From IMG/VR virus record IMGVR_UViG_3300033180_000094, positions 1 through 22,887 of that record: a DNA stretch of 22,887 bases; one strand, given 5' to 3'. Each line of letters opens with the position of its first letter. Positions within the stretch are counted from its first letter, which is position 1. The notes under the pieces were generated by a model. It did not search any database. It was not told the DNA's origin and worked only from the letters and a program-made list of their open reading frames with translations. Of this stretch, positions 1,234 to 20,840 are shown one piece after another. This stretch comes from a virus. A program made the translations under genes and the position numbers.

Positions 1234-1280
1234 TGGTGCGGCTGGCAGGAATCGAACCCACGACCCCTTGGTTCGTAGCC
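1234..1280 (-). other. attP: attP core: 3' half of a tRNA-Arg(ACG) gene
   Basis: Read on the - strand this gives the anticodon loop CTACGAA (anticodon ACG, 1272-1278), the 3' anticodon strand CCAAG, variable loop GGGTC, a T-arm with TTCGATT, the acceptor strand CAGCCGC, A73 and an encoded CCA (1234-1236). The 5' half of the tRNA is missing: the bases before the anticodon loop (TTGGG) do not complete the anticodon stem, and no D-arm or 5' acceptor strand follows. This is the usual signature of a tRNA-targeting phage that restores the 3' half of the gene on integration. The crossover is expected near the anticodon loop. It lies just downstream of int, and phage genes follow on its other side, so it looks like attP and not a prophage boundary. 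Confidence 0.88.
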
Positions 1281-1372
1281 CAACAGGACCGCTAACGACA
1301 ACTGCAAATCAACGACCTAGCGGCGCCCACACACCGCTTTCGTTCTGATCGATGCTGGGAAGCGCGAGCAGG

Positions 1373-2041: not shown

Positions 2042-2578
2042 TCATGGGTGCTCGGTCAGCGCGTCGTAGGACTGCTCGCAGAGCTTGCCGGCGTTGCCGC
2101 GCTCGTCGGCGACGGAAGCCAGGAGTCGAACTCTCTGGACGCACCGTCCGAGCACGTCGACGAGCACTCCGGTGGGGTCGCTGGCTGCCTGGCCAGGCTG
2201 GACAGCTTGGGGATTGCTGCCGGCTTCACGGGCTGCGGTGACAAGGGCAGCGACGCGCTGGGACAGCCGACCAGCAGCAGCGTCAGCAGTGGCACGAGCA
2301 GCACGCTCGCGCTCGGCGGTTTTCTCGGCAGCATCGATCTTCTCCTGTTGTTCGTCGCGCCGGCGTTGCTCCTCGGCGCGGTTGCGTTGCTCGTCGAGCA
2401 GGGTGACACGGCTGGCCAGCAGGCGCTCTTCGGCCATGCTGGCGCGATCGCCGGCCCTGCCCGCTTGCTCGGTGTGCAGGCGCCAGGTCTGCACGCCTGC
2501 TGCGGCGATCAGCGCGGCGCCGGCCGCGGCCGCGAGTGGCAGGAGCCAGCTGGTCGGGATGAGCGAGAGTGGGCTCAC
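2042..2578 (-). CDS. Rz: Rz-like i-spanin (DUF2514-type)
   Basis: Inner-membrane spanin subunit that, with the lipoprotein encoded inside it, disrupts the outer membrane in the last step of lysis. I placed the start at the GTG at 2578, which overlaps the endolysin stop (GTGA); longer starts run into the endolysin frame. The product is 178 aa: a short N-terminus, one membrane segment (about residues 9-30, LLPLAAAAGAALIAAAGV), a long charged coiled-coil region (about 40-110, rich in E, R, Q and A), then a C-terminal domain with the DPTGVLVDVLGRC and KLCEQSYDAL motifs typical of DUF2514/Rz-like proteins. It is the last gene of the late operon. Confidence 0.85.
   Translation of the reverse strand: MSPLSLIPTSWLLPLAAAAGAALIAAAGVQTWRLHTEQAGRAGDRASMAEERLLASRVTLLDEQRNRAEEQRRRDEQQEKIDAAEKTAERERAARATADAAAGRLSQRVAALVTAAREAGSNPQAVQPGQAASDPTGVLVDVLGRCVQRVRLLASVADERGNAGKLCEQSYDALTEHP
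2056..2334 (-). CDS. Rz1: Rz1-like o-spanin lipoprotein, nested in Rz
   Basis: Fully embedded in Rz in another frame. The ATG at 2334 follows a strong ribosome-binding site (CAGGAGAAGATCG then ATG). The product is 92 aa: a short basic start (MLPRKPP), a hydrophobic core, and the lipobox LLLVGC with the acylated cysteine at position 24. The mature part (about 69 aa) is rich in proline and serine (LPLSPQPVKPAAIP), as in other Rz1 proteins. It is expected to be lipid-anchored in the outer membrane and to bind the Rz coiled coil through the periplasm. The nested arrangement matches lambda Rz/Rz1. A longer reading from 2409 is possible but would put about 25 residues ahead of the signal sequence. 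Confidence 0.85.
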   Translation of the reverse strand: MLPRKPPSASVLLVPLLTLLLVGCPSASLPLSPQPVKPAAIPKLSSLARQPATPPECSSTCSDGASREFDSWLPSPTSAATPASSASSPTTR

Positions 2579-3156
2579 GGCGAGATCCCCAGCGCGACCT
2601 TCGCGGCATTCCACAGAATCACGCGCTCGGCGTAGCCGTTCGAGTCGCCCTCGCGCTGCGTCTTGTGGCCGCGGTTGATGCTGTCGCACACACCGTCGAA
2701 GTCGCCGGCGTCGGCGTATTGGTCGATGCCGTGCGTGTGCCAGAAGAGGCCAGCGGCATAAGCGCCCCAACGCGGCAGCTCGAGCAGCTCGGGCGACTGC
2801 TCGAAGTCGGGCACGCTGGGGAGGTAGTTCGCCAGGTCGTTGCGAGTGGCGATGTAGTTCGCTCGCCCCGTGATCTGGATGGGCCCGCGGCCCATGAAGC
2901 GCCGGCCATCACCGGGACGCAGGTTCCCGAGATCCTTGCGACCTTCGTAGCCCAGCTGCGCCGCGTTCGGGCCCCAGATCTCACGCGTGTAGACCAGGCG
3001 CCCCGACTCGTGCCCGACGTTGGCAAGGAAGGCCGCCTGGCGCGCCGGCGTCGTGATGCCGAACAGATCCATCGCGGCGGTCAACGGATCGAGCCACAGC
3101 TGCGCCTTCTGCAGGGTCGAGCCCGTGCAGGCCTTGAGCTGGTCGGCGGTCATCAT
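2575..3156 (-). CDS. Endolysin, glycoside hydrolase family 19
   Basis: Cleaves the peptidoglycan glycan strand during lysis. Length 193 aa, normal for a single-domain phage GH19 enzyme. Motifs include FLANVGHESG with Glu50 as candidate catalytic acid, TREIWGP with Glu59 as candidate second glutamate, and the GRGPIQITGRANY substrate-cleft motif (residues about 89-101). No signal peptide or SAR segment is visible, so release to the periplasm should depend on a holin. The ATG at 3156 overlaps the upstream stop (ATGA) and follows GGTGGG; the ATG at 3153 is an alternative. It lies between two membrane-protein genes upstream and the spanins downstream. Confidence 0.93.
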   Translation of the reverse strand: MMTADQLKACTGSTLQKAQLWLDPLTAAMDLFGITTPARQAAFLANVGHESGRLVYTREIWGPNAAQLGYEGRKDLGNLRPGDGRRFMGRGPIQITGRANYIATRNDLANYLPSVPDFEQSPELLELPRWGAYAAGLFWHTHGIDQYADAGDFDGVCDSINRGHKTQREGDSNGYAERVILWNAAKVALGISP

Positions 3157-3515
3157 GGCGCCCACCAGTGATGCGGTTTGCTGTCGAAGTCGCCGGCGCC
3201 GGTCTTGCGCGCCTGCAGCTTCTCGTCGAACTTGGCGATGAAAGACCAGCCCTGCGCTCGACCATGACTGATCGTGACCTTGACCAGCGTACCGATCGCA
3301 TAGAGCGCGATGCTCGCGTGAAGGCCCGTCCAGCTCGGGTCATCGACGCCGAAGGCCCAGATCCAGCGAATCCTGCTGATGCAGAAGAGCACCAGGCCGC
3401 TCATGCCCAGGCACTGAAGCAGGTTGTCGTTGAAAGCTCGGTGGTAAAGACCGAGAGCGCAGATCGCGACGACGATCGCGAGCGAGATGATGCTGATGAA
3501 AGACAACATGGTCAT
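3153..3515 (-). CDS. Small membrane protein of the lysis cassette (holin or antiholin candidate)
   Basis: Length 120 aa. The ATG at 3515 overlaps the upstream stop (ATGA) and has a strong ribosome-binding site (AAGGAG) five bases away; longer readings run into the upstream gene. Three hydrophobic segments are visible: about residues 4-22 (LSFISIISLAIVVAICALG), 33-48 (around LQCLGMSGLVLFC) and 63-80 (around HASIALYAIGTLV). The C-terminus is charged and cytoplasm-like (KFDEKLQARK). Topology, size and place directly before the endolysin fit a holin or antiholin, but I recognise no named family. Confidence 0.8.
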   Translation of the reverse strand: MTMLSFISIISLAIVVAICALGLYHRAFNDNLLQCLGMSGLVLFCISRIRWIWAFGVDDPSWTGLHASIALYAIGTLVKVTISHGRAQGWSFIAKFDEKLQARKTGAGDFDSKPHHWWAP

Positions 3516-3844
3516 TGCTCCTTCGGCGGCTGAGGTTGCACAGGCGGTAGGCGTAGCAGCTGCCGCACCAGGTCGCGCAGCATCTCGGTCAAGCCGATGC
3601 CTTCCCAGGCCTTGACCAGGCCGGAGACAACGATCATTCCGAGCATGCCGAGCAGGAACCCCGCGAAGCCTGCGTCCAGGTCGACGAGGCGGCGCACCCA
3701 CGGCGTGCCGTAGTACGACAGCGCCGAGCCGGCCAGGAACATGGCCACGCGACGTGGCCAGGCTTCTTTCATGAACAGCAGCGACACCAGGGAGCCAGCA
3801 GCTCCCGGCACCGCCTTCATCATCTCGGGCGGAAGTTCTTGCAT
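3512..3844 (-). CDS. Putative phage holin
   Basis: Length 110 aa from the ATG at 3844, which follows a strong GAGGAG site that overlaps the DUF1996 stop codon. Hydrophobic segments lie at about residues 13-27 (PGAAGSLVSLLF), 32-46 (RRVAMFLAGSALSYYG) and 58-77 (GFAGFLLGMLGMIVVSGLV). A short charged, proline-rich tail follows (PPVQPQPPKEQ). The general pattern resembles the 3-TM holins of Burkholderia- and Pseudomonas-type phages. It would form membrane lesions that release the endolysin at the lysis time. With the next gene it makes two consecutive small membrane proteins; which is the holin and which the antagonist cannot be told from sequence alone. Confidence 0.8.
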   Translation of the reverse strand: MQELPPEMMKAVPGAAGSLVSLLFMKEAWPRRVAMFLAGSALSYYGTPWVRRLVDLDAGFAGFLLGMLGMIVVSGLVKAWEGIGLTEMLRDLVRQLLRLPPVQPQPPKEQ

Positions 3845-3854
3845 GGTGTGCTCC

Positions 3855-5222
3855 TCAGTAGAGCCAGGTGCCGTCGCCCAGCAGGTTCGCGTGGCAATCC
3901 ATCGAAGGGTTGTCACAGTTCTTGATGATCTTGGCCATCGTGGCCGGGTCCCAGCCCATCAGGTAGTCGCCATGCGAGCTATAGCCGCCGGGAGCGGTGA
4001 CCGCGTAGTTGTCGGAGGCGAGCCGCCACTTGGCCATGTTGGCCAGGTTCACCTTCGACAGGTCGTAGTAGATCTCGTAGGCGATCGCCGGCAGCGCGAC
4101 GGGGTGCGTCTTCGGGCACCCGCTGCCGGTTGTCTCGGCCATGTGCGACTTGTGGTCGGGCGAATCGAGGTTGATCCCGTCCCAGCACTGCGGGAACGAG
4201 ACCTCCATGATCAGCGAGTTGTTCTGGTAGCAGGTGCTCGGGATGGTTGCCTGCCAGCCGACGCCCTTGTCACCCCCGACGCACGCATAGCGCCCTGCCC
4301 CGCTCGGGCTCGTCGGGTTGCCAGCGGCGAGCCCGCTGATCATGCGCAGGCCCGTCGGCACCGCCCGCACGTCCGCTGGCTTAACGCCGCCGTAGCCGGT
4401 TTTGTAGTAGACCAGCAGCGCCGACGGTGTCACCGGCGATCCGTCGGTCGTGTCGATCATCGCCGGCGCCCAGTACGACGTGCGGTTCAGTGTGCCGCCC
4501 GAGCACGTGGAGTTGCCCGAGTTCGCGATCGTGTCGGCCGTCGAGTTCGCGTCCGTGCCGGTGTTGCCGAAGAACACATGCAGATGCGACTTGCCCGCCT
4601 GCTTCGGGTACACGATCGGGTCGTTGAACGACATGTGCGAATAGAAACAGCCGAGCCTGAATGCGCCCACGTCGGAGGGGTTGATCGTCATCGACGTCGC
4701 CTGCAGGCGCGGCCCGCTCCAGCCCGACGCAGCCATGGGAATCTTCGAGAGATCGATCACCGGCAACAGCGACGTTGCAGCCTGCTTACACACGCCGTCG
4801 GGTGCGGTCCCCGGGAGCCACGGTGTCGGCGTCCACTGGTTGCTGATCAGCGTGAAGTCGCGCACCTGGTCGAAGCTACCGACCAGCGGCTGCGCACACT
4901 GCACCGTCTGCTTGTAGAGAGCAGCGTCCGTCGGCTTCGGCGGAACGACAACGGGCGCTGGCGGCGTGGACGTGACTTCAAAGCCGGCCGAGGTGTTGCA
5001 GTAGTACTTCTGCCTCACGACGTACTTCGTGTCCTTGTTCAACCGCTCCGCCTCCGTCAGCGCGCGCGGCTGACATTGCGTGGTGCTGGTGAGCGTCGTG
5101 TCAACGTTCAGCGAGCCACGCTTGAGCGTGACGCTGCCGGGCCCGGGAGGCGTCGTGACGGTGCTGTCGGCGAGGGCGGCGCAGCACGCGAGCGAGAGTG
5201 CTGAGAGAACGAACGTTTTCAT
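3855..5222 (-). CDS. Secreted DUF1996-family protein, function unknown
   Basis: Length 455 aa. Of the paired ATGs at 5225 and 5222 I prefer 5222, since the AAAGGA site is better spaced from it. A clear Sec signal peptide is present (MKTFVLSALSLACCAALA, cleavage likely after residue 18). Residues about 20-170 are a variable Pro/Thr-rich N-terminal region; about 185-430 carry the hallmark DUF1996 motifs: CFYSHMSFNDPIVYP (192-206), SHLHVFFGN (212-220), SYWAPAMID, SFPQCWDGINLDSPDHKSH (342-360), CPKTHPVALP (369-378) and SHGDYLMGW (416-424). The conserved His, Asp and Cys residues (His196, His213, His215, His357, His360, His373, His417) could bind metal; this is my inference. The family is best known from secreted fungal proteins and some bacteria, with no established activity that I know of. 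It is the first gene after a terminator and is only ten bases from the holin, so it is co-transcribed with lysis. Confidence 0.85.
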   Translation of the reverse strand: MKTFVLSALSLACCAALADSTVTTPPGPGSVTLKRGSLNVDTTLTSTTQCQPRALTEAERLNKDTKYVVRQKYYCNTSAGFEVTSTPPAPVVVPPKPTDAALYKQTVQCAQPLVGSFDQVRDFTLISNQWTPTPWLPGTAPDGVCKQAATSLLPVIDLSKIPMAASGWSGPRLQATSMTINPSDVGAFRLGCFYSHMSFNDPIVYPKQAGKSHLHVFFGNTGTDANSTADTIANSGNSTCSGGTLNRTSYWAPAMIDTTDGSPVTPSALLVYYKTGYGGVKPADVRAVPTGLRMISGLAAGNPTSPSGAGRYACVGGDKGVGWQATIPSTCYQNNSLIMEVSFPQCWDGINLDSPDHKSHMAETTGSGCPKTHPVALPAIAYEIYYDLSKVNLANMAKWRLASDNYAVTAPGGYSSHGDYLMGWDPATMAKIIKNCDNPSMDCHANLLGDGTWLY

Positions 5223-5257: not shown

Positions 5258-5280
5258 GAAAAAGCCCGCCGAAGCGGGCT
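5258..5280 (-). terminator. Intrinsic terminator between tail-tip and DUF1996/lysis genes
   Basis: AGCCCGC (5263-5269) pairs perfectly with GCGGGCT (5274-5280) around CGAA. On the - strand the stem is followed by five T residues. It lies after the last tail-tip gene and about 40 bases before the DUF1996 start, so DUF1996 and the lysis genes need readthrough, antitermination or their own promoter. I see no convincing promoter in the short remaining gap. Confidence 0.85.
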
Positions 5281-5305: not shown

Positions 5306-6049
5306 TCAGGTGAACGTGTAGCCCAAGGGCTCCGAGGTGTTGATGGTCCCCGTGAGAAGCACCGCACCCGATGAGTTGAGGAACTCGATCTTCAGCGAGC
5401 CGCCGCTGAGGACGTACGGACCCCCGCCACTGTTGGTTCGCATATAGATGGTGTCGAAGTCGTGCAACACCGAAAATGTCGGGTCGACGGTGAACGTGCG
5501 AGTTGTGCCTTCGTCGAGGCCATCAGCGGTTACTTGGCCGGCGAACACATTCCAATTGCCGGAGTCCGTTCCTGCAAAGGAGAAATAGATAATGCCCGGT
5601 GTGCCGCCGACCTTCGCGGTGGTGAAGATCTCGCTCGTGTCTCCAATGCCCGAGGGGAAGGCCACCGAAGTCCCATCTTCGAGCGCGGTGTACCGAACGA
5701 ACGCGATCGGCCCTGATGGTGCAGGGGGAGGCGGAGGTGGCGGGGGCGGAGGTGGCGGAGGAGGCAAGATCACGCGGCCGATCTCCACGTCGACGGTGTC
5801 GCCGTCTGGCGCTTGGGTCTCGATCACACCGGCGCGCACGAACGCGCGCTTGCCCACCGGCACGCTGGTGCCCCGCGGACGCAGCAACGAGCCGACAGCC
5901 ACGGCGCCGGCGTAGCCCACGACCGGCGGGCCCGGGATCTCGACAGTGCTGGTGTCGTCGTCGTGGATCTCGACCACGGTGCCCACGTAGATCTGCGGGA
6001 GCGGCACCAGGGCGCGCAGCCGCTCGAAGAGGTTGACCAGGCTGCTCAT
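5306..6049 (-). CDS. Tail-tip protein with polyproline linker and beta-rich distal domain
   Basis: Length 247 aa; the ATG at 6049 overlaps the upstream stop (ATGA). Residues 1-95 form a compact, valine-rich domain (VGTVVEIHDDDTSTVEIPG) that looks like a structural tail-tip module. Residues 96-109 are fourteen consecutive prolines. Residues 110-247 are rich in Gly, Thr, Ser and Phe with a beta-sheet pattern (GNWNVFAGQVTADG, SLKIEFLNSSGAVLLTG) and no cysteine. The build, a virion anchor, stiff linker and beta domain, suits an adhesin or receptor-binding role; this is inferred, and no named family is recognised. It is the last gene before the terminator, the usual place for tail-tip or fibre genes. 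Confidence 0.8.
   Translation of the reverse strand: MSSLVNLFERLRALVPLPQIYVGTVVEIHDDDTSTVEIPGPPVVGYAGAVAVGSLLRPRGTSVPVGKRAFVRAGVIETQAPDGDTVDVEIGRVILPPPPPPPPPPPPPPAPSGPIAFVRYTALEDGTSVAFPSGIGDTSEIFTTAKVGGTPGIIYFSFAGTDSGNWNVFAGQVTADGLDEGTTRTFTVDPTFSVLHDFDTIYMRTNSGGGPYVLSGGSLKIEFLNSSGAVLLTGTINTSEPLGYTFT
5723..5764 (-). repeat. Low-complexity tract encoding fourteen prolines
   Basis: The - strand carries fourteen proline codons using a mix of CCT, CCG, CCA and CCC, so it is not a pure triplet expansion. The + strand is a dense run of GG and GGGGG blocks with quadruplex potential. Confidence 0.95.
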
Positions 6050-7254
6050 GTGATCACCGTTCCTTCGAGCCCGGCGCGACGCTCGAGCGTGATGCTTTGC
6101 GTCGCGCTGGGGAACGCGACTTCGACGCGCACAGCACGCACGATGCCGTACCACGTCTCGAAGGTGTCGTCGACGATGCGGCACAGTTGCCCCACGTTCA
6201 GCACCCCTGGAAGCGCGCCGCCGACGAGGATCGGCAACGTCATCCTCACGACGGCGCCAGGCCCGCCCTTGCCGAGCTCGGCGATGCCTCGTTGTGCACA
6301 CGCTGGCGGCTCGGTGAGCAGCAGGTCCGTTACCAGCGGCGCAATCTTGTCGCCTGTGGTGCCCGCCACGTGCACATAGCAAAGCGCGCCCTGCTGCTGG
6401 CCGCTGACATAAATCGCGTTGTAGGCCGGTTGGTCGTTGCGCTCGTAGCTGTCGACCATCGCGGCGTCGATGTGGATCTCGACATCGGGCGCCACGACAG
6501 GCCATTCGTTCGGCAGGTACGGATAGCGCGGCCGCACGTAGATTCGATTCAGCGCGCGATCGCTGGTGACCGTGGCGTCGACGCTTGATGCGACGCGCTG
6601 AGCGACCTCGAGCGGCGTGCCAGCGAACGTCCACACCTTGTCGGGAATGAGCCAGTCTTCCAGGAACCACAGCACCTCCATCCCGGTGTAGATCTGCGCC
6701 TGGTCGATGAGCTGCGCGGCGCTCGCCGGACCTTCGTTGATCCAGTTCTGTGAGAACTCATATGGCGTGCCGGCCGCAATGGTGATGCTGCGGCCGGTGA
6801 TGTTCAGCGTTGCGGAAGGGAACTGGCGCGTGCGTTGAACGCCTTCGATGATGAACAGCCATTCGATCCCGTCGATGGACACGCTCCACACCGGCAAATC
6901 GGCGGGATCCAAAGTCGCGAACAGCGACGCAGGCGCCGAGGCGTTCAGCGTCCACACCGCGGAGCCGTCGTCGGCATCGATCGAGAACGAGAGCAACTCG
7001 ATGGCGCTGCTGTCGCGCGTGTCGGTGACGGCGAACTCGTGCACCGCCGAGTAGTAGTACTGCGCCGGTAGCACGTACGTCGCATCGAGCGATCCAGGCC
7101 CGGTCGGGGTCGATCCGTCCGGGGGATCGATGGGCGTGAACGGCCCACCGCGGCTGACAATCGCCTCGCCGAAACCCCACGGCAGCTGAACGGCTGCGGA
7201 GATCGTGACGGCCTGCGTCCATGGGAGGCTGAACGCGACCGCAATGCCTGACAT
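6046..7254 (-). CDS. Tail hub / baseplate-like protein
   Basis: Length 402 aa. The ATG at 7254 starts three bases after the preceding stop. The chain alternates beta-rich regions: an N-terminal part (about 1-170) with PVWSVSIDGIEWLFIIEG, a middle with YTGMEVLWFLEDWLIP, and a C-terminal half with NAIYVSGQQQGALCYVHVAG (276-295) and a TLPILVGGALPGVLNVGQL segment. The motif NAIYVSG followed by a GELG/AELGKGG-type helix and a closing beta domain resembles tail hub proteins of the gp27/gpD-like group, which cap the tail tube and hold the tip. That assignment rests on pattern and gene position alone. It is followed by the polyproline tail-tip gene with an ATGA overlap. Confidence 0.7.
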   Translation of the reverse strand: MSGIAVAFSLPWTQAVTISAAVQLPWGFGEAIVSRGGPFTPIDPPDGSTPTGPGSLDATYVLPAQYYYSAVHEFAVTDTRDSSAIELLSFSIDADDGSAVWTLNASAPASLFATLDPADLPVWSVSIDGIEWLFIIEGVQRTRQFPSATLNITGRSITIAAGTPYEFSQNWINEGPASAAQLIDQAQIYTGMEVLWFLEDWLIPDKVWTFAGTPLEVAQRVASSVDATVTSDRALNRIYVRPRYPYLPNEWPVVAPDVEIHIDAAMVDSYERNDQPAYNAIYVSGQQQGALCYVHVAGTTGDKIAPLVTDLLLTEPPACAQRGIAELGKGGPGAVVRMTLPILVGGALPGVLNVGQLCRIVDDTFETWYGIVRAVRVEVAFPSATQSITLERRAGLEGTVIT

Positions 7255-18504: not shown

Positions 18505-19617
18505 TCAGCTCGGATCGGCGCCGGTGATCGGCGTTGCTGTGTCGGACGTTGACAGCGTCGACGTCCACGCCGGCGTGGCGTCATCTTCCTTGGTCACTGT
18601 CAGGGTCGCGCCGGTGATGGACCACTTGTTGCGGATGTTCCGGAGCGCGTTGAGGACGGAACGCGAGGCCTCGCCGGCGACGGCCGACCAGTCGCGCTTG
18701 AGCAGCGCGTCCGCGTTCTCGAGCGCGGTGGGCACGTCCCCAATGTCAGCGGCGAGGCTCGCGCCCGCCGGTGCCCCGAGGCGTCCCATGATCGCGTCAG
18801 TGGCCGCAATGACCAGCGACTGGTCCGCAGGGTCAACCGGGAGGTTGTCGGTCTTGCCCTTCACCGAGGTGACGTCGCCGGCGACGGCGGTTAGCGCTGC
18901 AGCGGTCGCCAGTCCTGTCTGCAGCTCGACCGTGAGATCCGCGGCGGCCGCGGCGGCCGTCATCACGTTGGCGGCCATTGCACCGACGGACGCATCGATC
19001 CGTCCGCCGACAAGTGCCGCGGGAAGGCGAGTCTGCAGGTCGTTCGTGTCTGCCTGGATCGACGTCACGTCGCCCGCTACGGCGGTGAGCGCTGCAGCTG
19101 TGGCCAGTCCTGTCTGCAGCTCGACCGTGAGATCCGCGGCTGCCGCCGCGGCAGTCATCACGTTGGCGGCCATCGCGCCGACGGATGCATCAATGCGGCC
19201 ACCGACGAGAGCCGCGGGGACGCGCGTCTGCAGGTCGTTCGTGTCCGCCTGGATCGACGCTGTCTCAGCCTTGACCGCAGCGATGTCGGCAGAAACGGAT
19301 GCACCCGCCGGTGCGCCGAGGCGCCCGAAGGCGTCGCCGGTTTGCGGGAACTGGGTGACGTATTGGACCGTCACCGGGATCGCACCGGCTGCGACGAACG
19401 TGAAGCAGGCGAGGTCATAGTTCGTCTCGGCCTGCGCCGGTGCATACGTGTGCAGTCCGTTGCCCTCGTGCGTGCACGCGCCGGCGCCGACGGAGCCCAC
19501 CGCCTGCACGCCTCCGTCGCCGGTCACGTAGACGGTGACGGCGCCCGTGAACGCAGAGCCATCGGCCGCCGCGATCATTTGTGCTGCCGCGACCTGCGCG
19601 GCGACGTTCTTTTTCAT
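18505..19617 (-). CDS. Fibre-like virion protein with internal repeats
   Basis: Length 370 aa from the ATG at 19617, which overlaps the SGNH hydrolase stop (ATGA). The N-terminal 95 residues (ending VTVQYVTQFPQTGDAFGRL) resemble the attachment domains of phage fibre and upper-baseplate proteins. Residues about 100-120 (GAPAGASVSADIAAVK) lead into a helical stalk with two near-identical 65-residue repeats (121-185 and 186-250, IQADTNDLQTR, GGRIDASVGAMAANV). A related GAPAGASLAADI element recurs near residue 287. The C-terminus (SITGATLTVTKEDDATPAWT) is a small beta domain. The repeats are common in phage fibre-like proteins, probably a trimeric stalk. Its place in the head gene cluster argues for a head or neck fibre; the attachment point is inferred. 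Confidence 0.8.
   Translation of the reverse strand: MKKNVAAQVAAAQMIAAADGSAFTGAVTVYVTGDGGVQAVGSVGAGACTHEGNGLHTYAPAQAETNYDLACFTFVAAGAIPVTVQYVTQFPQTGDAFGRLGAPAGASVSADIAAVKAETASIQADTNDLQTRVPAALVGGRIDASVGAMAANVMTAAAAAADLTVELQTGLATAAALTAVAGDVTSIQADTNDLQTRLPAALVGGRIDASVGAMAANVMTAAAAAADLTVELQTGLATAAALTAVAGDVTSVKGKTDNLPVDPADQSLVIAATDAIMGRLGAPAGASLAADIGDVPTALENADALLKRDWSAVAGEASRSVLNALRNIRNKWSITGATLTVTKEDDATPAWTSTLSTSDTATPITGADPS
18868..19257 (-). repeat. Two tandem 195-bp coding repeats
   Basis: Copy 1 is 19063-19257 and copy 2 is 18868-19062. The 65-residue products differ at one site (Val133/Leu198), while the DNA differs at several synonymous positions (for example GCGGCGGCCGCG against GCTGCCGCCGCG). 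That suggests an old duplication under protein-level selection. Confidence 0.9.
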
Positions 19618-20840
19618 GATTGGACTACCGTGTTTGAGCCGCGTGCCCAAGCGGCAAGGAAAGAGGCCGCGGGCGAGCTCAGCGTGAGACCTGGGAGCGT
19701 CTTCGCAACTGCGCAGCGGCGCTCCGCCGTCAGCTGCTGGCCGGCGTCGGTCTGATGCAGACAGTTTGGCGAGGGCTCATACCAATAGGCGGCGGTCGCC
19801 GTGAAGTAGGCGGCATTGAACGTCGCTGTGTCCCATGGCGGGTCGGCCGTCATGTCGAAGAAGACGTCGATGTTCAGCGCTGCCAGATGCGCACGGATGT
19901 ACGCGTTTGCGTCTGCGTTGGCTGCGTTCAGCGCGTCGAGCGTGGGGCCGTCGGCGAAACTGCGCTGGGCGGGGATCGCACCCGATGCAAGGGTGATCCA
20001 CTCCGGGTGCACTGCGCGCAGCGCCCCGAAGTAGTCCCCCAAGAATTCAGCGGCCTCGACACCGGTCGATCCGCCATTGAACGTCTGATTCGTGATCTCC
20101 CACGCGTCGGCGACCATCGATCGATCAGGGTCGAACTCCGGAGTCACGAACTCCGCAATGCGGTCGATCATGGCTTCAGTCGTCTGGCCGTCGACCGCGA
20201 CGTTCACGAATTCGGTGCCGGAGCCGAGGAAAGGCTCCAGTACGGCCATGCGCTCCAGCACGGTCTTCGGTTCAGCCCGGATCGCCAGCGAATTGCCGTC
20301 GCCGAGCCACTTGACCGTGTTCGGCGTGAAGTAGGTGCGCGCCTGCCCGAGCGTGGCCGTCGCGGTGCACGTACTGCCGGCGCTGAAAGACCGGAAGGAA
20401 GGCGAGAGGTCGCCGATGTGCTGATCCTCGAAGACGTGAACAACCTTGGGCCCCGATCCGTCGTCAACGCCGACGAAAACCTGACAGCCCGCGCGCTCGA
20501 TCTCGATGGCATAGCCCGCGGTGCCCGCGAAGCTGTTGTCGTAGTTCGGCGCGCTGACATTGCCGAGATGCCACATCTGGAAGTCATCGCCCTCGACTAC
20601 CACGCAGGCGTACTCCATGTCGCCGATGTCGACGTAGTCGTTCGTCGAGTTGAGCGAGAAGAAGAGCGGGCCTGTCATCGCGCCGATCACGAACCGAATC
20701 TTGCCATCCGTGCCGGCGGCGATGATCGTGTCTGACTGTGCGCAGCCGCCGTCATCCGTGAGCGTGACGACGTGCGGTCCCGCGCCCGTGACCTCGCCAT
20801 TGCGAACATCACCCCAGTTCGGAAAAGCCGTGGTTGTCAT
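19614..20840 (-). CDS. SGNH/GDSL-family hydrolase with N-terminal virion domain
   Basis: Length 408 aa; the ATG at 20840 overlaps the portal stop (ATGA). Residues about 1-170 are beta-rich without a known motif (VVTLTDDGG, GKIRFVIGAM). Residues about 175-385 carry SGNH landmarks: block I as WLGDGNSLAI with Ser184, block II Gly218 in VAVDGQTT, block III Asn251 in ITNQTFNGG, and block V His362 in NCLHQTDAG. The usual Asp three residues before the His is Asn359. Relatives are mainly esterases or deacetylases of carbohydrates, so removal of acetyl groups from a host surface polysaccharide is a reasonable inference. It lies between portal and a fibre-like gene, so it is probably virion-borne. Confidence 0.8.
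   Translation of the reverse strand: MTTTAFPNWGDVRNGEVTGAGPHVVTLTDDGGCAQSDTIIAAGTDGKIRFVIGAMTGPLFFSLNSTNDYVDIGDMEYACVVVEGDDFQMWHLGNVSAPNYDNSFAGTAGYAIEIERAGCQVFVGVDDGSGPKVVHVFEDQHIGDLSPSFRSFSAGSTCTATATLGQARTYFTPNTVKWLGDGNSLAIRAEPKTVLERMAVLEPFLGSGTEFVNVAVDGQTTEAMIDRIAEFVTPEFDPDRSMVADAWEITNQTFNGGSTGVEAAEFLGDYFGALRAVHPEWITLASGAIPAQRSFADGPTLDALNAANADANAYIRAHLAALNIDVFFDMTADPPWDTATFNAAYFTATAAYWYEPSPNCLHQTDAGQQLTAERRCAVAKTLPGLTLSSPAASFLAAWARGSNTVVQS

Follow-up and report, generated by a model that had tools for sequence, protein, structure and literature searches.

A secreted DUF1996 protein encoded in a phage lysis unit may act on polysaccharide

The whole stretch of DNA analysed, hereafter the window, is a 22.9-kb (22,887-nucleotide) IMG/VR virus record of a temperate tailed phage, with an integrase gene on the plus strand (1-1227) and minus-strand structural genes running down from 22789. 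The lysis unit follows on the minus strand in the order terminator, DUF1996 gene, holin, small transmembrane protein, GH19 endolysin and Rz (Table 1). A preliminary description had placed a protein with a Sec signal peptide after the terminator and ten bases before the holin, and we confirm these coordinates on the minus strand: the terminator reads AGCCCGC-TTCG-GCGGGCT-TTTT (5280-5263), and the holin ATG at 3844, preceded by GAGGAG, lies exactly 10 bases past the DUF1996 stop codon. A consensus scanner missed the terminator (5280-5259) because of its T-run threshold. No sigma-70-like promoter is detected between the terminator and the DUF1996 gene, so its transcription could rely on read-through or antitermination just as well as on a promoter of its own. 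A frame inside Rz (2056-2409, minus strand) with a lipobox-like LLLVGC is a probable embedded Rz1 o-spanin. A scan found no relatives of the adjacent tail protein (6046-7254), and a search of the whole window against phage records gave no match.

Table 1. Positions of the DUF1996 gene, its parts and the neighbouring lysis features in the window
Feature	Position	Strand	Description and basis
Intrinsic terminator	5259..5280	-	Boundary between tail genes and DUF1996-lysis unit; sequence and fold
DUF1996 protein gene	3855..5222	-	455 aa, secreted; 455 codons, stop TGA at 3857-3855
Sec signal peptide	5163..5222	-	About residues 1-19; read from sequence
N-terminal modules	4788..5144	-	Residues about 27-145; common to the alternative slot protein of L140
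DUF1996 core (PF09362)	3951..4622	-	Residues 201-424; Pfam match
Holin (phrog_2359)	3512..3844	-	PHROG match; start codon from sequence
Small membrane protein	3153..3515	-	Possible second holin or antiholin; hydrophobicity only, no PHROG match
GH19-type endolysin (phrog_181)	2575..3156	-	PHROG match
Rz-like i-spanin (phrog_312, PF10721 DUF2514)	2042..2578	-	PHROG and Pfam matches

Directly after the integrase stop codon lies the 3' half of a tRNA gene (1234-1281, minus strand), with an ACG anticodon loop and a CCA end. Since phage genes flank it on either side, we read it as an attP-like site, which gives the record the look of a temperate phage in excised or circularly permuted form. The structural region also encodes a 408-aa protein (19614-20840, minus strand) that resembles SGNH/GDSL hydrolases (GDGNSLAI, CLHQTDAG) and has no Pfam or PHROG match; a stretch similar to it ends a tail fibre of another phage, L002 (3-2849).

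The DUF1996 protein matches PF09362 at 157.4 bits against a gathering cut-off of 27 (E 8e-46), with positions 1-237 of the 237-position profile covered; this match, and the recurrence of the domain in scans of viral loci, lead us to reject a chance or artefactual call. The full set of DUF1996 motifs announced earlier stands for the head signature DPIxxP...HxH (DPIVYP KQAGKS HLH) and the tail signature HxDxxxGW (HGDYLMGW), whereas the middle position reads N-R-T-S-YW-A-P instead of the D-x-S-x-YW-x-P that Tong et al. 2016 defined, with the other two, for fungi (PMC4738358). Phage and bacterial copies conserve the N, Y and W of this stretch, so the departure looks like a lineage difference. Judged by eye, the N-terminus, MKTFVLSALSLACCAALA followed by DS, is a Sec type-I signal peptide and does not fit a lipobox. 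We describe the protein as secreted, modular and rich in cysteine. No PHROG family covers it, and neither a lysin match in Pfam or PHROGs nor a tail PHROG match is found. The signal peptide, the position in the lysis unit and the lack of a tail PHROG match speak against a tail-spike-type depolymerase.

Viral DUF1996 loci numbered 4 in a single-sequence scan and 46 in a profile scan; about 38 loci are distinct when the window and a public phage record are counted in. A signal peptide, in some cases of lipoprotein type, heads nearly every full-length phage copy. Several copies sit among lysis genes, in the orders holin, membrane protein, DUF1996, lysozyme, Rz (L003), GH19 endolysin, DUF1996, holin (L024), holin, DUF1996, GH19 endolysin (L027, which has another copy after a tail gene) and endolysin, two membrane proteins, DUF1996, Rz (L030), and L002 carries a tandem pair ahead of its lysis genes. 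Others lie in tail or other regions (L001, L010, L011, L032, L038). Linkage was evaluated in records at least about 19 kb long, with phrog_7, phrog_181 and phrog_315 as the only endolysins, by sliding the DUF1996 gene along each record and comparing the endolysin gap. The gap is 3 kb or less in 9 of 14 endolysin-bearing records including the window (2.8 expected, P 3e-4) and in 8 of 13 without it (2.5 expected, P 7e-4), these P values being approximate because the 3-kb threshold was chosen after the loci had been seen, records were treated as independent and endolysins were limited to three PHROGs. The exceptions are G007, G011, G016 and G030, and also G035 unless that record is circular; in G027 a weak phrog_7 match inside a 1418-aa frame was set aside and the phrog_315 match used. 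Peptidase_M15_4, sought as an endolysin marker, is found in none of the large records. The record-level test replaced an earlier count within six genes based on locally chosen markers, in which 11 of 38 loci, little above a rough expectation, scored as linked, a low figure that reflects incomplete marker families and the fragmentary state of many records. The adjacency for which a profile search had been proposed therefore recurs in other phages, and the link between DUF1996 and lysis genes is real but not exclusive.

A gene directly before the holin, encoding a signal peptide without an outer-membrane anchor in the window copy, could specify an auxiliary lysis enzyme or other factor, whose periplasmic target would be peptidoglycan, osmoregulated glucans or the outer membrane and which would assist holin, endolysin and spanins in completing lysis. 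We consider this unlikely. The endolysins beside phage DUF1996 differ in chemistry (GH19, T4-type lysozyme, GH108 and VanY-type), and four kinds of partner imply no fixed murein partner; the domain also occurs in murein-free fungi and, on bacterial chromosomes, at sites with no phage genes nearby, and the protein matches no lysin family. The tail genes that neighbour many phage copies (L004, L018, L019, L021, L035), together with tail-spike depolymerases being a well-known class, are what one would expect of a virion-associated protein, a tail-tip or spike accessory working at entry, yet the signal peptide and conserved cysteines indicate export and not virion assembly in the cytoplasm, and we find this very improbable.

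Other genes recur around phage DUF1996. A phrog_3108 gene (3823-4311 in L008, and relatives) lies three to five genes after DUF1996 beside four phage copies, and its lysozyme-like AIGLQES motif (ALLxAIGLQES) suggests that it may be an endolysin; it was left out of the endolysin counts because the function of this PHROG is unknown. In two related phages a secreted trypsin-like peptidase gene (L043 4804-5382, with PF13365, and L045 4788-5369) directly precedes a lipoprotein-type DUF1996 gene. A small secreted protein of ~100 aa is encoded directly after DUF1996 in L007 (7122-7424), L026 (6937-7230) and L027 (3132-3455). In a 322-kb record, L023 (7123-9108), the gene after DUF1996 encodes a DUF1800 protein with a CSDQTFGR-type N-terminal module common to other DUF1996 proteins.

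Among 61 DUF1996 domains from phages and bacteria, R189, D201, H215, N246, Y250, Y272, Y273, W347, D348, N351, D353, H357, H360, D404, D419 and W424 are invariant, and H213 and H417 are conserved in 60 of 61, which bears out the many conserved His and Asp residues reported before; H373 is likewise among the conserved His and Asp positions, which would be candidates for the metal site suggested there. The eight cysteines conserved in the same set fit an exported protein. A simple method yields dN/dS of 0.055-0.27 for pairs of related phage copies, several of which have high dS. The phage copies are intact and under purifying selection, and the decay in phage that had been raised as a ground for doubt is rejected by the conserved residues and dN/dS. 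Phage and chromosomal sequences are mixed in the tree, where the window groups with L002 and L007; well-supported branches force at least seven phage/chromosome switches in a tree whose bootstrap had not settled, which disfavours a single phage family.

The closest relative found by endolysin (L129, 76% identity; Rz also matches, E 2.5e-50) has its two small membrane genes on one side of the slot and the GH19 endolysin on the other; the slot itself encodes a secreted protein of 628 aa that lacks DUF1996. We find that its first 150 residues match the N-termini of several phage DUF1996 proteins (phmmer E 7e-29 for L026 and 4e-24 for L024), and that the N-terminus of the window protein aligns with that of the L140 homologue of this swap partner (BLASTP 38%, 117 aa, E 2e-19). 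A module scan resolves three short N-terminal modules that are shuffled among DUF1996 and swap-partner proteins. No DUF1996 match is found in the three records that carry the swap partner, and the swap partner is absent from the window and two DUF1996 phages. Its C-terminus, whose columns average 84% identity in three phages, gives PKD and Beta_helix matches that are both weak and below Pfam cut-offs, and reads, suggestively only, like a right-handed beta-helix; a PDB search with it returned chance-level matches only. Either domain can occupy this slot behind a common secreted N-terminus, which suggests a shared kind of task.

Variable slot content between relatives, a temperate phage with an integrase and an attP-like site, and lipobox-type signals in a few phage copies (L043, L045) would also suit lysogenic conversion, in which the protein alters host glycans, blocks receptors and excludes superinfecting phage. 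The window gene nevertheless lies within the late lysis unit, away from the att site and with no promoter of its own detected, and we regard this explanation as improbable.

Links to polysaccharide come from bacteria and fungi. Among 70 bacterial DUF1996 proteins we find fusions to CBM6/CBM35 repeats (L096), CBM10 (L112), a GH5 cellulase (L052) and PKD repeats (L111), and a DUF4124 module in 11; CatAgl and CBM13 in L096 were not counted as separate fusions, as they overlap its CBM6/35 repeats. The GH5 cellulase-DUF1996 fusion, from Aquabacterium (L052 7779-10715), adjoins a second DUF1996 gene. Among 114 neighbours of a chosen set of chromosomal DUF1996 genes, glycosyltransferases account for 7, RmlD or epimerase proteins for 5 and nucleotidyl transferases for 3, and by reading, the DUF1996 genes of L061 and L067 follow rml genes and that of L054 follows sugar-nucleotide genes. 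A small control, 55 proteins drawn arbitrarily from only two such genomes, contains no sugar-enzyme family with two or more members. Fungal DUF1996 is often paired with CBM1, CBM6 or WSC, and a link to polysaccharide degradation has already been suggested by others (PMC7679414).

A functional study in fungi describes a vacuolar location and deletions with stress and metal-ion phenotypes (PMC4738358). These phenotypes and the many conserved His and Asp would be consistent with a non-enzymatic glycan- or metal-binding protein, such as a decoy or metal buffer freed at lysis, and the domain could bind sugars rather than cut them. An active site is a better fit to the invariant polar residues of phage and bacterial copies and to the swap with a beta-helix-like domain, and we think a purely binding role quite improbable. 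In the literature we found a demonstrated enzymatic activity for no DUF1996 protein, and, in line with the earlier description, no phage role is evident in the titles and abstracts of the examined papers that name the domain.

AlphaFold models the whole window protein with a pLDDT of 89.9 and the DUF1996 domain alone with a pLDDT of 96.4 and a pTM of 0.93. For the domain, Foldseek finds no PDB match under 0.001 and a second-look aligner reaches at best Z 2.7 with no convincing PDB match; fold searches of PDB and of a viral library with the full model give no significant match, and a sequence search of PDB with the A3 profile gives none. The DUF1996 fold may be new, and with no PDB fold match there is no mechanism to borrow.

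We propose, with about even confidence for and against, that the DUF1996 domain acts on polysaccharide, likely as a depolymerase, and that the protein is held in the periplasm, released at lysis and aids progeny escape. The protein would be made late, together with holin and endolysin, exported by Sec and held in the periplasm until endolysin and spanins open the envelope and release it. Its C-terminal DUF1996 domain would act, most likely as a depolymerase, on exopolysaccharide, capsule or a different envelope glycan of the host. Outside the cell it would loosen the matrix that surrounds the lysing cell and those nearby, which would free progeny from debris and give them access to further cells. 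We infer the step from association to enzyme, and with it the activity, the substrate, periplasmic storage and a benefit at release. The envelope action or stray conversion gene suggested previously is thereby narrowed: the module swap, the CBM and GH fusions and the exopolysaccharide neighbourhoods favour action on polysaccharide over a generic envelope role or a conversion gene.

Compared with the fungal proteins Vlp1-3 and Wsc1I of Beauveria bassiana, the window protein has the same domain, secretory pathway and head and tail signatures; it differs in being phage-encoded in a lysis unit and in its N-terminal modules, with no WSC or CBM1. Chromosomal homologues (Burkholderiales, Methylophilaceae, Actinobacteria) reach roughly 45-52% identity over the domain at their closest and intermix with phage copies in the tree, but are non-phage genes, and some of them lie near exopolysaccharide genes or carry CBM or GH domains as fusions. 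With phage tail-spike polysaccharide depolymerases the protein shares the proposed target class, and its swap partner a weak beta-helix signal; unlike them it is Sec-exported, encoded with lysis genes and without a match to tail-spike folds. Operon and timing are shared with endolysins and spanins, whereas the protein has no lysin or spanin domain and its family extends to murein-free organisms.

That a well-conserved DUF1996 member is common to phage and bacteria is the ordinary part. As far as the literature examined shows, three things are new: DUF1996 is used repeatedly in phage lysis units, another secreted domain can take its place on the same N-terminus, and the case that its target is polysaccharide is coherent. 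More tentatively, and with the balance tipped against it, DUF1996 might constitute a class of secreted polysaccharide-degrading enzymes with a new fold, which phages use with interchangeable partners as a lysis-expressed, matrix-clearing release module, unlike virion-borne depolymerases. If the proposal is right, it would offer a first clue to the function of a domain that occurs widely in fungi and bacteria and has no known activity or solved relative, would name a class of phage genes, now annotated hypothetical, as secreted glycan-acting proteins in lysis units, and would make progeny escape from polysaccharide matrix after lysis a testable question.
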